Assembly: GCF_024721585.1 (NCBI RefSeq)
Contig: NZ_CP102629.1
Coordinates: forward strand, 186,001-250,000
Direction: 5' to 3'
Source of the DNA: Sphingomicrobium aestuariivivum
GTDB taxonomy: Bacteria > Pseudomonadota > Alphaproteobacteria > Sphingomonadales > Sphingomonadaceae
Length of the DNA: 64,000 nucleotides
Below, one piece after another: positions 11,637 to 17,825 of the stretch. The translations under genes and the position numbers were made by a program. The notes beneath the pieces are model-generated. The model made no database searches. It saw only the letters and a program-made list of their open reading frames with translations, and had not been told where the DNA came from. Each line of letters starts with the position of its first letter. Within the stretch, counting starts at the first letter, position 1.

Positions 11637-12175
11637 GTTTCGACTTTCTCTCGACCTTTCCCGTCTGGCAGGGGCTGCTGATCGCTTTCGGTGTGGTCGC
11701 TGCCATGGAGCTGACGGCCTATGCGGTGCATCGCTGGGTGATGCACGGGGCGCTGGGCTGGGGCTGGCATGCCTCGCACCACGAGAAAACACACGGCCTG
11801 TTCGAGAAGAACGACCTCTACGCCGTCGTCTTCGCGGGGCTGGCGATCGTCATGTTCACGGTGGGGGCGCTGGGGCCGGTGTGGCTGTGGTATGTCGGGC
11901 TCGGCACGACGCTCTACGGCATCCTCTATTTCATCGCGCATGACGGGCTGGTGCACCAGCGCTGGCCGTTCCGGATCGTGCCCAAGTCGGGCTATGCGCA
12001 GCGGCTTTACCAGGCGCACCGGCTGCATCATGCGGTCGACGGGCGCGATGGCTGCGTGTCCTTCGGTTTCCTCTACGCCCCGCCGGTGCGGGTGCTGAAA
12101 GAGCAGCTCAAGCGTAACCATCCACGCGGCGTGCGCGAACCGGAGGATGTCCCCGAACTCCAGACAGGTGCGTGA
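11633..12175 (+). CDS. crtZ: Beta-carotene hydroxylase
   Basis: A 180-residue membrane di-iron hydroxylase of the fatty acid hydroxylase superfamily that places the 3-hydroxyl on beta-ionone rings. Histidine motifs are visible: HRWVMHG (near 29), HASHHEKTHG (near 42), HDGLVHQRWPF (near 104) and HRLHHAV (near 129). The ATG at 11633 overlaps the crtW stop (ATGA). Longer in-frame starts would run inside crtW and lack homology. The C-terminal tail is charged. With crtW it gives canthaxanthin-, zeaxanthin- or astaxanthin-type products depending on the upstream carotenoid. Confidence 0.93.
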   Translation: MSFDFLSTFPVWQGLLIAFGVVAAMELTAYAVHRWVMHGALGWGWHASHHEKTHGLFEKNDLYAVVFAGLAIVMFTVGALGPVWLWYVGLGTTLYGILYFIAHDGLVHQRWPFRIVPKSGYAQRLYQAHRLHHAVDGRDGCVSFGFLYAPPVRVLKEQLKRNHPRGVREPEDVPELQTGA

Positions 12176-12825
12176 TGCGACCCTTTGCCCTTGCCCTTCT
12201 TTCCTCCCTCGCGCTGGCCGCCTGCGGGTCGGCATCGGCGAGTGGCTATGAGAAGGTGCCGGCGGCAAGGCTGGTGATCGAGAATGACGCGGCCAGCGAG
12301 ACGGCGGTGTTCGCCGGTGGCTGTTTCTGGGGCGTCGAGGCGGTGTTCGAACAAGTGAAGGGCGTGCGCTCGGCCGTGTCGGGCTTTTCGGGCGGCGCGT
12401 CGCGCAAGGTCAGCTACCGTCAGGTCGTGTCGGGTGGCACCGGGCATGCGGAGGCGGTGAAGGTTGTCTTCGATCCGCGCATCGTCTCCTATGCCGAACT
12501 CATGCGGGTCTATTTCTCGGTGATTGCCGATCCCACCCAGCTCAACCGGCAGGGCCCCGATGTCGGCCCGCATTATCGGACTGCCTTCTTCCCGATGGAT
12601 GCGCGGCAGGAACGACAGGCGCGCGCCTTTATCGCACAGCTCGGGCGGGCAGGGGTCTATGACAGTCCGATCGTGACGAGGATCGAGGATTGGTCGCATT
12701 TCATCCCGGCCGCGACCTACCATCAGGATTTCGCGAGGAAGAACCCGCGCCATCCCTATATCGTGCGCCACGACGCGCCAAAGGTGGCGGCCTTCAGGCG
12801 ACTTTTTCCCGAGCTTCGCCGCTAA
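12175..12825 (+). CDS. msrA: Peptide-methionine (S)-S-oxide reductase, probable lipoprotein
   Basis: Repairs oxidised methionine. The catalytic GGCFWG motif is at about residue 45, followed by the conserved GVRSAVSGFSGG, RQVVSGGTGHAEAV and FDP stretches and the C-terminal YHQDFARKNPRH. The N-terminus is a signal peptide ending in a lipobox (LAAC, Cys near residue 16), so the enzyme is probably an envelope lipoprotein, not cytosolic. The ATG at 12175 shares one base with the crtZ stop (TGATG), coupling it to the carotenoid genes; both products protect against oxidants. It is convergent with the BCCT gene, the two stops overlapping by 4 nt. A broken second copy of its 3' end lies at 14705-14863. 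Confidence 0.93.
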   Translation: MRPFALALLSSLALAACGSASASGYEKVPAARLVIENDAASETAVFAGGCFWGVEAVFEQVKGVRSAVSGFSGGASRKVSYRQVVSGGTGHAEAVKVVFDPRIVSYAELMRVYFSVIADPTQLNRQGPDVGPHYRTAFFPMDARQERQARAFIAQLGRAGVYDSPIVTRIEDWSHFIPAATYHQDFARKNPRHPYIVRHDAPKVAAFRRLFPELRR

Positions 12826-14684: not shown

Positions 14685-14701
14685 TGGCGGAGAGGGTGGG
14701 A
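14685..14701. repeat. 17-bp copy of the tRNA-Ser 3' end (att-like direct repeat)
   Basis: TGGCGGAGAGGGTGGGA is identical to 17736-17752, which encodes the 3' end of tRNA-Ser (CCA tail, discriminator, acceptor strand and the start of the T stem). The two copies are in the same orientation and enclose about 3.03 kb. This is the pattern left by an element that integrated at the 3' end of a tRNA gene. No integrase is visible between the copies. Confidence 0.7.
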
Positions 14702-14704
14702 GCG

Positions 14705-14863
14705 GCAGGCTCGCGCCTACATCACCCAGCTTGGCCCGTCGTGGTGGCGGAAGGCTGTCACCAGGATTTCGCGAAGAAGAACCTGCGCCATCCCCATATC
14801 GTGCGGCATGACGCGTCCAAGGTGGCGGCGTTCAAGCGGCTGTTTCCCGAACTCGAGCGCTAG
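14705..14863 (+). pseudogene. msrA 3'-end remnant
   Basis: Two stretches match the end of msrA at 12175-12825. Bases 14705-14737 resemble the AxAFIAQLG region. Bases 14760-14861 match the last 34 codons at about 85 of 102 positions, the peptide reading CHQDFAKKNLRHPHIVRHD against YHQDFARKNPRHPYIVRHD. Between the stretches about 50 nt are missing and the frame changes, and the catalytic N-terminal half is absent, so the copy is dead. It starts 3 nt after the tRNA-Ser 3'-end repeat. It may come from an old msrA duplication or from a related second gene (msrA-like). Confidence 0.8.
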
Positions 14864-14864
14864 A

Positions 14865-16178
14865 TCAACGACGCCCGACGAGCATCGGGTCGTCGAAGCG
14901 CCGTTTGATGCGCACCGAGCAGTCGGCGTGAAGCTGGCGATCGAGGGGCAGCGTGCGTGACGTGAAGTCGAACAGGCCGAAATGCGACATCACGCCTGTC
15001 GACAAGATCCGCGTTCCGGTCTCGTCGGTCCAGACGCGCCGACCGTGGCCGGACAAGACACATTCGGTGAGGCTGCCGCTTTGTTCGCGGTGGAGCGCCG
15101 CGGCCGGTTGGCGGCCCGGCTGCGGGACGATCATGAGCGGCGGGCGCGGTAGCGTCGTGCCGGGGGGCGTGGTCGTCGTGGTCGGCGTCGGGGTAACGGT
15201 CGTCAATTGACCGACCGGCTGCGGGCCCTGCGTGGTCGGCTGGGGACGCGGCAGGGTAGGGACGGCAACCATCGGCGGCACGCGGATGGGCTGCGGCTGC
15301 GGGATTTGCTGGGGAACGGGCTGGGGTACCATTTGCGGTATCGGGGTGGGCACCTGCATCGGGGTCGGCACCTGCTGGGGCGGGAGGACCGGCTGGGGCA
15401 TGTTGACGACCGGATCGGGCGGGACCTGCTGCGTCGACGGCTGGGGCGGGATCGCCATCGGGGTCGGTGTCTGCTGCGGCGGGAGGACCGGCTGGGGGAC
15501 GTTGACGACCGGATCGGGTGGCACCTGCTGCGTCGGTGGCTGCGGCGGGATCGCCATCGGGGTAGGGGTCTGCTGCGGCGGGAGGACCGGCTGGGGCACG
15601 TTGACGACCGGATCGGGTGGCACCTGCTGCGTCGGTGGCTGCGGCGGGATCGCCATCGGGTTCGGAACCTGTTGGGGCGGGAGGACCGGCTGGGGGACGT
15701 TGACGACCGGATCAGGCGGGACCTGCTGCGTCGGCGGCTGGGGCGGGATCGCCATCGGGGTCGGTGTCTGCTGCGGCGGGAGGACCGGCTGGGGCACGTT
15801 GACGACCGGATCGGGCGGGACCTGCTGCGTCGGTGGCTGGGGCGGGATCGCCATCGGGTTCGGCACCTGCTGGGGCGGGAGGACCGGCTGGGGGATGGCG
15901 TACACGGGCTCGGGCGGCACTTGCTGTCTGGGTGGCTCGGGCGGGACCGCGTAGGTGGGCTTGCCGTCGGTAGGGGGGAGGGCAGTCTGGCTCGGTTGCG
16001 TGTTGGTTGGCTGCGTCGGGGTGATCGTCGTGGTGTCGGGGACGGACCCGCAGGCGCTATTCTGATGCGGGTTCCCGATCCCCTGGCACCAACCGTAATG
16101 ATGCCCCTGCGCCACCGCGTCGGGGGCGGCGGCGAGCAGCCAGAGAAAGAAGGCGGCAAGGGAAAGCAGGCGGGTCAT
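14865..16178 (-). CDS. Exported proline-rich protein with six 33-residue repeats
   Basis: A 437-residue protein of unknown function. Residues 1-24 form a signal peptide (hydrophobic core, AVAQ cleavage). A short Cys-containing segment follows (CQGIGNP, SACG), then six near-identical 33-residue units (residues 76-273) rich in Pro, Gln and Val, ending alternately in VPNP or TPTP, then a Pro/Thr-rich linker and a C-terminal domain of about 70 residues with two Cys and charged motifs. The ATG at 16178 overlaps the TpsB-like gene stop by 4 nt (ATGA). I chose it over an upstream start because it gives the clean signal peptide. Coupling to an outer-membrane transporter suggests a surface or secreted passenger, but it lacks the TPS haemagglutinin domain. 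Confidence 0.8.
   Translation of the reverse strand: MTRLLSLAAFFLWLLAAAPDAVAQGHHYGWCQGIGNPHQNSACGSVPDTTTITPTQPTNTQPSQTALPPTDGKPTYAVPPEPPRQQVPPEPVYAIPQPVLPPQQVPNPMAIPPQPPTQQVPPDPVVNVPQPVLPPQQTPTPMAIPPQPPTQQVPPDPVVNVPQPVLPPQQVPNPMAIPPQPPTQQVPPDPVVNVPQPVLPPQQTPTPMAIPPQPPTQQVPPDPVVNVPQPVLPPQQTPTPMAIPPQPSTQQVPPDPVVNMPQPVLPPQQVPTPMQVPTPIPQMVPQPVPQQIPQPQPIRVPPMVAVPTLPRPQPTTQGPQPVGQLTTVTPTPTTTTTPPGTTLPRPPLMIVPQPGRQPAAALHREQSGSLTECVLSGHGRRVWTDETGTRILSTGVMSHFGLFDFTSRTLPLDRQLHADCSVRIKRRFDDPMLVGRR
15360..15953 (-). repeat. Six tandem 99-bp repeats encoding 33-residue Pro-rich units
   Basis: The string ATCGCCATCG recurs at 15451, 15550, 15649, 15748 and 15847, an exact 99-bp period. The sixth, 5'-most coding unit (15855-15953) is diverged (YAVPPEPPRQQ in place of MAIPPQPPTQQ). 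The period is a whole number of codons, so copy number can change without frameshift. Confidence 0.95.
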
Positions 16179-17677
16179 CGGGTGAAAGCCTTGCTGATGC
16201 GGGCATAGATGGCGAGGTTGCCGGCGTCGCTGCGCGGTCCGTCGGCGAGCGGAACGGCGAGCCAGCTTTCGAATCCCCACCCCGACGAGATATGAGCGCG
16301 TACACCCGCGCCGGTCGAGGCGAGGCGATAGTCGTCTCCGGCAGAGAGGCGGTTGGCGCGCTGGCGGAAAGCGCCGGCTTCGAGAAAGGTGAAGACCGAC
16401 AGCTGCGCATCACTGCCATCCTCGAGGAGGTGGTCGAGCGACAGCGCGCCGATCGCGGCATCGTCGCCAACCGCCTCGCCAAGGCCGTAGCCGCGTAGCG
16501 AGGGCTGGTGACCGGCATAATAGCGCTCGAGCGCGGGCAGGTCGTCGAACGCGAGTTGGCCCGCCAGTTCGACCTGGACCTGGCTCTTTCCTCCGAGGGG
16601 CAGCGCGAGTCCGATCACGCCGTTGAGATGCGCGAAGCCGGCATCGTCCTCGCCCGGCGCAACCAGCGAGGCGTCGTCGCTGACGCCGATACTCGCGGCC
16701 AGTTCTGCTTCGACAAAGGTGCCATTGTCGGCGGTATGGCCCCCGACGAGGAAGGCGCGCAGTGCGCGGCTGCTGCTCTGGAAGTCGCTGCTGCCGAGGC
16801 GGCTCTCGGCGTCGCGATATTCGGCTTCGCCGATCATCATGAGAAAGGCGCCGGGCTTGCGCACCAGGGCGTGGCCGATGCCGATCGCGGCCTGTTTGCC
16901 CTCAAGCGTGCTGTCGACGCGGATCGTGCCGATGTCGCGTTCGCCAAAGGCGGTGCCGGCGCGCGCCTCGAGAAAGGTGCCGCTGCTGCCAAGCGGGGTG
17001 AGGTATCGCAGGATGCCTGCCAGTCCGACCCCGTCGTCGGGTTCGAGCGTGCCGACCGCGGTGGCCTGGAGCTGGTCGCCGGTCGACAGCAGCGAGGTGA
17101 CGGCGGAGTCGAGGACGAGGCGGCCACCGGTGCCGGGTGCGATGTTGATCGTATCGAGCGAGACGAGAAAGGTGGGCCCGCGTTGCGTCCCGTGCAGTTC
17201 AAGGACCGCGCCGTCCCCGCCCTCGTGCTGGAGGCTTGCGCGAAGGTCGATGCCGGCAAGGTCGTCGGCGAGGAGGAAGCGGCGGTCGAAGTCCTGCTGT
17301 TTCGGCGCATCGATTCCCACGAGGGGCGTGAAGCGTTCCGCGATGGCGCGGGCGGCGTCATCATCGAGCCCGTCGATGCGTATCTCGTCGATGCGGCCCT
17401 CGTTGACCCGAAGGACCCACTGGCCATCGCGTTGGTAGGCGGTCGCTTCGGCGAGGAAATAGCCGTCTTCACGGTAGAGGATCTCGACCGCTTCGACGAG
17501 GTGGTGGTCGGTCAGCGTCTCGCCGGCCTCGCGGATATGCTGGATGGCATAATGGACGAGGTGGTCGGCGTCGTAGCGGGTGACGCCTTCGACAGCGATG
17601 CCATGGTCGGGCAGGCTCGCGGGCGGCGCGGGCAGCGGCGCGAGCAATGCAGCCGAGATAAGCGATAGCACCGTCAT
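16175..17677 (-). CDS. TpsB/ShlB-like outer-membrane secretion protein
   Basis: A 500-residue Omp85-superfamily transporter of the two-partner secretion kind (ShlB/FhaC/HecB). After a signal peptide (about residues 1-20) comes one clear POTRA-like domain (about 28-105, including YREDGYFLAEA and VNEGRIDEIRIDG), then a beta-barrel (about 165-500). SLRGYGLGE near residue 390 corresponds to the VRGY/F loop-6 motif that plugs the barrel. The usual second POTRA is short or unclear, so the protein is somewhat below the 550-590 residues of classical TpsB. It is directly coupled (ATGA) to the proline-rich repeat gene, not to a filamentous haemagglutinin. Cognate-pair export is inferred from that coupling. 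Confidence 0.82.
   Translation of the reverse strand: MTVLSLISAALLAPLPAPPASLPDHGIAVEGVTRYDADHLVHYAIQHIREAGETLTDHHLVEAVEILYREDGYFLAEATAYQRDGQWVLRVNEGRIDEIRIDGLDDDAARAIAERFTPLVGIDAPKQQDFDRRFLLADDLAGIDLRASLQHEGGDGAVLELHGTQRGPTFLVSLDTINIAPGTGGRLVLDSAVTSLLSTGDQLQATAVGTLEPDDGVGLAGILRYLTPLGSSGTFLEARAGTAFGERDIGTIRVDSTLEGKQAAIGIGHALVRKPGAFLMMIGEAEYRDAESRLGSSDFQSSSRALRAFLVGGHTADNGTFVEAELAASIGVSDDASLVAPGEDDAGFAHLNGVIGLALPLGGKSQVQVELAGQLAFDDLPALERYYAGHQPSLRGYGLGEAVGDDAAIGALSLDHLLEDGSDAQLSVFTFLEAGAFRQRANRLSAGDDYRLASTGAGVRAHISSGWGFESWLAVPLADGPRSDAGNLAIYARISKAFTR

Positions 17678-17735: not shown

Positions 17736-17825
<90 letters not shown>

Follow-up and report, generated by a model that had tools for sequence, protein, structure and literature searches.

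Introduction

In two-partner secretion (TPS; type Vb secretion) the cargo protein, TpsA, carries a TPS domain that addresses it and is believed to initiate its folding; export through the outer-membrane transporter, TpsB, is believed to be driven in part by folding outside the cell (PMC5422565). In the transporters FhaC and CdiB the region between the signal peptide and the first POTRA domain (POTRA1) holds a plug helix, H1, and a linker (PMC9355242, PMC5422565), which together have been called a specific TpsB feature (PMC9355242). H1-like helices are predicted in most TpsBs, and in FhaC H1 is dispensable, the linker being needed for secretion (PMC5422565). Here we analyse a pair of overlapping genes that encode a TpsB-type transporter and an exported, proline-rich partner protein. 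They lie on a 64,000-nt stretch of the genome of the alphaproteobacterium Sphingomicrobium aestuariivivum (contig NZ_CP102629.1, positions 186,001 to 250,000), referred to as the window.

The pair looks like an undescribed branch of two-partner secretion. Judged by its sequence, it is a variant of type V secretion, i.e. the transporter is a TpsB by its barrel and loop 6 but lacks the H1/linker feature, and the partner lies outside the definition of a TpsA. Among the papers listed by a literature search that reached few subscription papers, none gives an account of TpsB partners without a TPS domain or of the partner family; a first-pass annotation of the window had called this class of passengers apparently undescribed. 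In an analysis of the transporter superfamily the terms TpsA and TPS domain are absent from the main text (PMC4104836).

Results

A recurrent gene pair

Re-reading of the sequence confirmed what the first-pass annotation had reported of the locus, i.e. the coordinates and strand of both genes, their 4-nt overlap and the loop-6 sequence SLRGYGLGE. The stop codon of the transporter gene and the start codon of the partner gene share ATGA; the partner most likely starts with the ATG at 16178, the longer open reading frame (ORF) from a GTG at 16280 being mechanical. The transporter matches the Pfam family ShlB (2e-6) above the curated cut-off, no second family being above its own, and the window genome (2.35 Mb, one contig) contains one TpsB match to it. 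The partner had been described as an exported Pro/Gln-rich repeat protein without a recognised TPS domain, and this holds, the signal peptide being assigned by inspection and no TPS family being matched; in Pfam and NCBIfam no family came near its cut-off. The POTRA region ascribed to the transporter is weak in the window protein alone (POTRA_2, 0.18), while eight of the 11 family members match POTRA_2 at E ≤0.1 (best 0.0025).

Altogether, 11 pairs were found in 10 genomes, which belong to the family of the window genome, to a second family of the same class and to Roseivivax lentus. The searches scored only part of their first candidates, so that these counts are lower bounds, and their samples overlap (397, 385, 71, 248 and 249 genomes for the N-terminal motif of the partner and 269 for its C-terminal domain). 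In the window genus (71 genomes) the transporter gave 16 matches at E ≤0.001, of which only the one in genome G216 is strong (33% identity, E = 1.4e-65); the transporter of G216 is followed by a Pro-rich protein, both ends of which resemble the ends of the window partner. Among 397 genomes of the window family a two-row alignment of N-terminal regions led (E < 1e-6) to G303, G357 and G432, the last of which has two copies on separate contigs. A seven-row motif picked out G608 in a sample of 385 genomes of the class and, in the family of G608 (248 genomes), G976, G1016 and G860. Scanning a genome collection with the transporter alignment yielded 66 pattern matches and one relative, Roseivivax lentus (Rhodobacterales), which also has a partner behind its transporter. 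The class thus extends beyond the window family to four genomes of a second family and to Roseivivax lentus. Nevertheless, the pair is rare, with at least two of 71 genomes in the window genus and at least four of 248 in the family of G608, and in a sample of the phylum (249 genomes) the motif search returned only G000, G608 and one spurious match.

In all 11 pairs the distance between the end of the transporter stop codon and the partner start is -4 to +4 nt, if the start codon nearest to this stop is taken (some partners have more in-frame starts). The searches with the N-terminal motif and the C-terminal domain gave no clear partner match away from a transporter, all lying directly behind transporters of one clade. 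Seven weak loci (L143, L144, L145, L135, L090, L092 and L099) were checked frame by frame and judged unrelated; most weak matches of the 397-genome search, which gave some match at E ≤10 in 340 of the 397 genomes, were left uninspected. The C-terminal search did not return G432 or G357, which probably lie outside its sample, and the partner of G357 is cut before its C-terminus. Among weak P0002 matches in the genus (E 1.5e-4 and worse) the best, L032, is a place where other ORFs lie, one of which resembles what we presume to be SbcD, and this match was taken as low-complexity chance. On plasmids a search that covered transporters, not partner genes, gave only distant TpsBs (23-32% identity), and PHROGs gave no match at E ≤0.01.

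The recurrence of the pair 11 times with the same order and spacing, together with purifying selection on the partner (see below), implies that it is more than a chance neighbourhood. Comparison of the loci shows a dedicated pairing of the partner with the transporter and joint inheritance of the two. The earlier proposal of a dedicated partner class, to be followed up by looking for the partner beside TpsB genes of other sphingomonads, is thus supported both by the 11 pairs and by the lack of clear matches away from a TpsB.

The transporters form a separate branch

With a fragment, L081, left out of the transporter set, the 11 pair transporters form one clade with a support of 100/100, to which none of 42 other TpsBs from related genomes belongs. 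The tree program warned that the long branches of L020 and L016 meet that of the pair clade; in a quick mixture-model tree without these two the pair-clade branch had a value of 100 in the Shimodaira-Hasegawa-like approximate likelihood-ratio test. All 11 match ShlB in Pfam and carry RGY in loop 6. In the PDB a profile of the 11 transporters matched CdiB best (6wim, 1.4e-11), then the POTRA structure of TpsB4 (2mhj, 5.7e-5) and, with weaker scores, POTRA structures of other Omp85 proteins. The POTRA structures match profile positions 27-108; the space ahead of the barrel would suffice for two POTRA domains, but no separate second one could be discerned.

A simple hydrophobicity rule applied to the alignment places the core of the signal peptide 6-26 residues (median 14) from POTRA1 in the 11 pair transporters and 41-78 residues (median 58) in the 42 others, without overlap. 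The plug helix H1 and linker typical of TpsBs were not found by a sequence rule in any of the 11, and the pair transporters seem to have no room for them.

The partner: conserved ends and a variable middle

The partners are characterised by a signal peptide, an N-terminal CX6HX4C motif (GWC.G.GN.H), a middle rich in Pro and, at the C-terminus, a domain of about 75 residues. In the alignment all 11 show a hydrophobic leader followed by GWC-x-G-[VI]-GN-x-H-x4-C, with the spacing C-x6-H-x4-C kept throughout. Partners with both ends are 293-523 residues long, and their middle (163-387 residues; 20-36% Pro, 2-8% charged residues) is lineage-specific in sequence and length. The C-termini, assessed in the nine partners with a 3' end, i.e. 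without the truncated ones of G432b and G357, have 14 invariant columns, including two cysteines 45-47 residues apart, and share 23-39% identity between the window partner and the eight others. Mature partners have four cysteines, two per end, in all nine cases, and none is seen in the middle (that of G216 contains a run of N); the partners of G216 and G357 have one extra cysteine in the leader.

The first-pass annotation had described the protein by its Pro/Gln repeats. They turned out to be the least conserved feature of the class: the period is 33 residues in the window and G357, 31 in G303, 30 in G216 and both G432 copies and 62 in Roseivivax lentus, and no clear period is present in G608, G976, G1016 and G860, so that similarity of the repeats was rejected as a defining feature.

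Between G608 and G976 the partner gene is under purifying selection, with a ratio of nonsynonymous to synonymous substitution rates (dN/dS) of 0.16 for the whole gene, 0.44 for the first 43 codons (leader included), 0.13 for the middle and 0.10 for the C-terminus; the transporter gene has a value of 0.11 in the same comparison. When the two G432 copies are compared, synonymous change has reached saturation in the partner (ratio of the proportions of nonsynonymous and synonymous differences, pN/pS, 0.33). Distances among the transporters correlate with those among the partner C-termini (r = 0.95, none of 5000 permutations being as high) and with those among the N-termini (r = 0.56, 0.0004).

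The partner lies where a cargo gene would be expected

A GWC-type partner lies directly behind the transporter in 11 of 11 pair loci and behind none of the 42 other TpsBs. In 20 of the latter the next ORF, at -20 to +60 nt, leaves the fetched stretch and contains little Pro, and one more, seen whole, encodes 2265 residues. Ten of the 42 have a downstream ORF of at least 100 residues (the longest being taken) that starts at -4 to +4 nt. It is thus nothing unusual in TPS operons of these bacteria that the transporter gene comes first and the spacing is tight, and coupling was rejected as a distinctive feature. Of the argument from translational coupling made in the first-pass annotation, the coupling itself stands, being tight in all 11 pairs, but it is not special alone. 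Rather, the partner appears to occupy the slot of the presumed cargo, and by this comparison the novelty is the protein in that slot.

The TPS domain PF05860 was found in none of the nine pair genomes searched (the tenth, Roseivivax lentus, was left out), and a TpsA elsewhere in these genomes was rejected on this ground. As a positive control, the same domain was detected at E ≤0.01 in 10 of 24 genomes with other TpsBs, in six of them over the cut-off. NPNG or NPNL occurs in none of the 11 partners (two truncated, one with a run of N), and no Pfam family was matched at E ≤0.1 by any of the five partners scanned. A long β-helical passenger is not what the partners suggest, given the short length and the Pro content of those with both ends. 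The absence of PF05860 together with the pairing makes the Pro-rich partner the natural candidate cargo.

Setting of the pair and neighbouring genes

The window pair sits between two exact 17-bp copies of the 3' end of tRNA-Ser(tga) (Table 1); no further copy with up to two mismatches was found in the window, where 0.01 would be expected. The two genes take up the repeat-bounded stretch of 3.05 kb apart from some 160 and 60 nt, too little to accommodate an integrase. The space from the partner gene to the outer repeat copy contains, adjoining the latter, the 104-nt remnant of a gene that we take to be msrA-like. The window pair resembles an islet inserted at the tRNA gene, an origin that would agree with the patchy distribution of the pairs. 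As a general rule this is unsupported, as among the ten other pair loci scanned a tRNA was seen only in G216, where tRNA-Ser(cga) lies at a distance of about 4.3 kb; for its 3' end, about 52 kb of surrounding sequence yielded no second copy.

Table 1. Features of the pair and its surroundings; positions count from the first nucleotide of the window.
Feature	Position	Strand	Remark
TpsB-type outer-membrane transporter, 500 aa, gene 1 of the pair	16175..17677	minus	Pfam ShlB 2e-6; family-profile PDB matches
Approximate POTRA region, residues 27-165, directly behind the transporter signal peptide	17183..17599	minus	barrel boundary is an estimate
Loop-6 motif LRGY, residues 394-397 of the transporter	16487..16498	minus	RGY in 11/11 pair transporters
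Partner, exported Pro/Gln-rich protein, 437 aa, gene 2	14865..16178	minus	ATGA overlap with gene 1
Partner signal peptide, residues 1-23, ending ...DAVA before QG	16110..16178	minus	inspection and alignment of 11 partners
Conserved N-terminal motif HHYGWCQGIGNPHQNSAC (C-x6-H-x4-C), candidate secretion signal	16050..16103	minus	spacing kept in 11/11 partners
Tandem array in the partner gene, 99-nt (33-aa) unit, 6.0 copies	15357..15950	minus	
Partner C-terminal domain, two invariant cysteines (C373, C420), basic tail; candidate disulfide anchor	14868..15116	minus	9/9 partners with 3' end
tRNA-Ser(tga), directly upstream of the pair	17736..17825	minus	
17-bp direct repeat, copy 1, 3' end of the tRNA-Ser gene	17736..17752	plus	
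17-bp direct repeat, copy 2, just past the end of the pair	14685..14701	plus	
104-nt, 84% identical copy of the 3' end of the presumed msrA-like gene (12172-12825)	14759..14862	plus	

Genes for AraC-type regulators lie no more than about 4 kb from the pair in G216 (L082 5654-6751, overlapping the transporter start) and at both G432 copies (L117 2663-3841, minus strand; L118 6224-7357), the Pfam scan of these regulators covering the genes of L082 and L117. A protein of 221/222 residues recurs near the G216 pair and both G432 pairs, and a gene for an M13-type peptidase is found near the first of the G432 pairs and a similar ORF near that of G216. In both G432 copies a secreted-looking protein is encoded 37 nt upstream of the transporter (L117 6855-7658; L118 2357-3223, minus strand); the L117 copy matches no Pfam family, and the protein is possibly a third component in G432. 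IS240-type transposase genes occur less than 5 kb from the G216 and G357 pairs (L082 10640-11356, minus strand; L119 1931-2629). The partner genes in L118 and L119 end at contig ends inside the repeats, and that of G216 (L082) has its run of N in the repeats. The arrays seem hard to assemble, and members may thus be missed in draft genomes.

Discussion

We consider it rather probable that the pair is a dedicated, non-canonical two-partner (type Vb-like) system that exports the partner as an extended chain. We infer that the partner is a secreted passenger, whose export, recognition and anchoring may proceed as follows. Both proteins, made from one coupled message, would be exported by Sec, as their signal peptides suggest. 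In the periplasm the POTRA region of the transporter, uncovered by a linker, would recognise the short CX6HX4C motif instead of a TPS domain, and the Pro-rich, weakly charged middle would then cross the barrel in extended form, with no need for β-helical folding. Finally, and this is the step of which we are least sure, the two-cysteine C-terminal domain might form a disulfide knot in the periplasm, too bulky to follow, which would hold the partner in or at its own pore. The outcome would be a Pro-rich stalk of variable length that displays the CX6HX4C tip at the surface. The anchoring idea has a precedent, since a C-terminal disulfide holds HMW1 and HxuA in their TpsBs (PMC5422565, PMC3983070).

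Several points weigh against this proposal. As the linker of FhaC is essential and the pair transporters seemingly have none, the pair branch must work somewhat differently, and these transporters may do something else than ordinary TpsBs. The F/GxDxG motif of strand β13 is uneven, the Asp position being Ala or Ser in both G432 copies and in G216 and Glu in the window. The driving force proposed for TPS export is the folding of the cargo outside (PMC5422565), and a Pro-rich chain may offer no folding to drive it; moreover, the N-terminal cysteines could hinder passage if they formed a disulfide in the periplasm first. Searches of Pfam, NCBIfam and the PDB gave no significant match for the C-terminal domain, so that homology to known anchors is without support, and the cysteines of HMW1 are 10 residues apart, unlike the wide spacing found here. 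Finally, 14 of the 24 control genomes with other TpsBs are also silent for PF05860, and the absence of the domain from the pair genomes is thus modest evidence.

It is conceivable, if unlikely, that the partner is a periplasmic accessory, i.e. a plug, a gate or a Pro-rich spacer replacing H1 and the linker, or a TonB-like tether, and that the real cargo is another protein. TonB consists of a hydrophobic leader, a Pro-rich spacer that spans the periplasm and a small C-terminal domain, and the partner has its leader, spacer and small C-terminal domain in the same order. It is also strictly paired and co-inherited with a transporter without the H1/linker stretch, i.e. without the usual plug. However, the partner leaders end in what look like signal-peptidase sites on inspection, unlike the uncleaved anchor of TonB, and the variable length of the middle suits a stalk at the surface more than a span of constant length. 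As to the real cargo, a third gene common to the pairs was not noticed in six loci, in which no systematic test was made, and no cargo with a TPS domain was found.

Quite unlikely, in our view, is a passenger that is released to the medium and whose C-terminal domain is a functional head rather than an anchor. Some TpsA proteins are secreted into the milieu (PMC5422565), and the C-terminal domain is larger than the 20-residue anchor of HMW1; yet its position at the C-terminus, the cysteine pair, the basic tail and its co-variation with the transporter rather fit a part that stays on the transporter, although common descent alone could give a correlation of this height.

A canonical TPS system, whose TPS domain has diverged past recognition or whose true TpsA is encoded elsewhere in the genome, is highly improbable. 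Profile searches can miss diverged domains, as the many silent control genomes remind us, but the window partner offers only about 53 residues from its signal peptide to the repeat array, a space too small for a domain with a profile of 252 positions, the partners are without NPNG or NPNL, and the window genome, with its one TpsB match, has no TPS match. Chance neighbours or a frame artefact in DNA whose GC-rich repeats open several frames are practically excluded, being refuted by the 11 pairs of the same order and spacing in distant genomes, the low dN/dS of the partner gene and C-termini that remain recognisable at the identities given above.

Extending the favoured view of an exported, dedicated cargo, the pair might even represent a separate type V subtype, a tentative idea that may well not hold. 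Here, an Omp85 pore would work without plug helix and linker, a short disulfide- or metal-binding CX6HX4C signal would replace the TPS domain, and an intrinsically disordered polyproline chain would be exported without β-helix folding, the C-terminal disulfide domain of the cargo corking the pore in place of the missing plug.

If true, a TpsB branch with a short Pro-rich cargo that has no TPS domain would separate addressing from folding and would be a small system in which to ask what drives ATP-free transport through an Omp85 pore. It would also point to a blind spot, as surveys that demand PF05860 next to a TpsB miss such pairs. A survey of marine bacteria, for instance, relied on PF05860 as its screen and called for both components to lie in neighbouring frames (PMC2702493), so that pairs of this kind would be invisible to it.

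Compared to described systems, the pair combines familiar and deviating features. It shares with FhaC/FHA, CdiB/CdiA and ShlB/ShlA a transporter of the TpsB/Omp85 type with a POTRA region, a ShlB-type barrel and RGY in loop 6, and with type Vb systems the gene of an exported partner tightly linked downstream, an arrangement that other TpsBs of related genomes show as well; in contrast to these three systems, the partner is small, without a recognised TPS domain or NPNG, and the transporter has no H1/linker stretch. The 42 other TpsBs of related genomes belong to the same superfamily (23-39% identity to the window transporter over the matched stretches), but lie outside the pair clade, have a long N-terminal extension and are never followed by a GWC-type partner. 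As in HMW1/HMW1B and HxuA, the cargo has a C-terminal cysteine pair, although no sequence similarity to these proteins was detected and anchoring is putative here.

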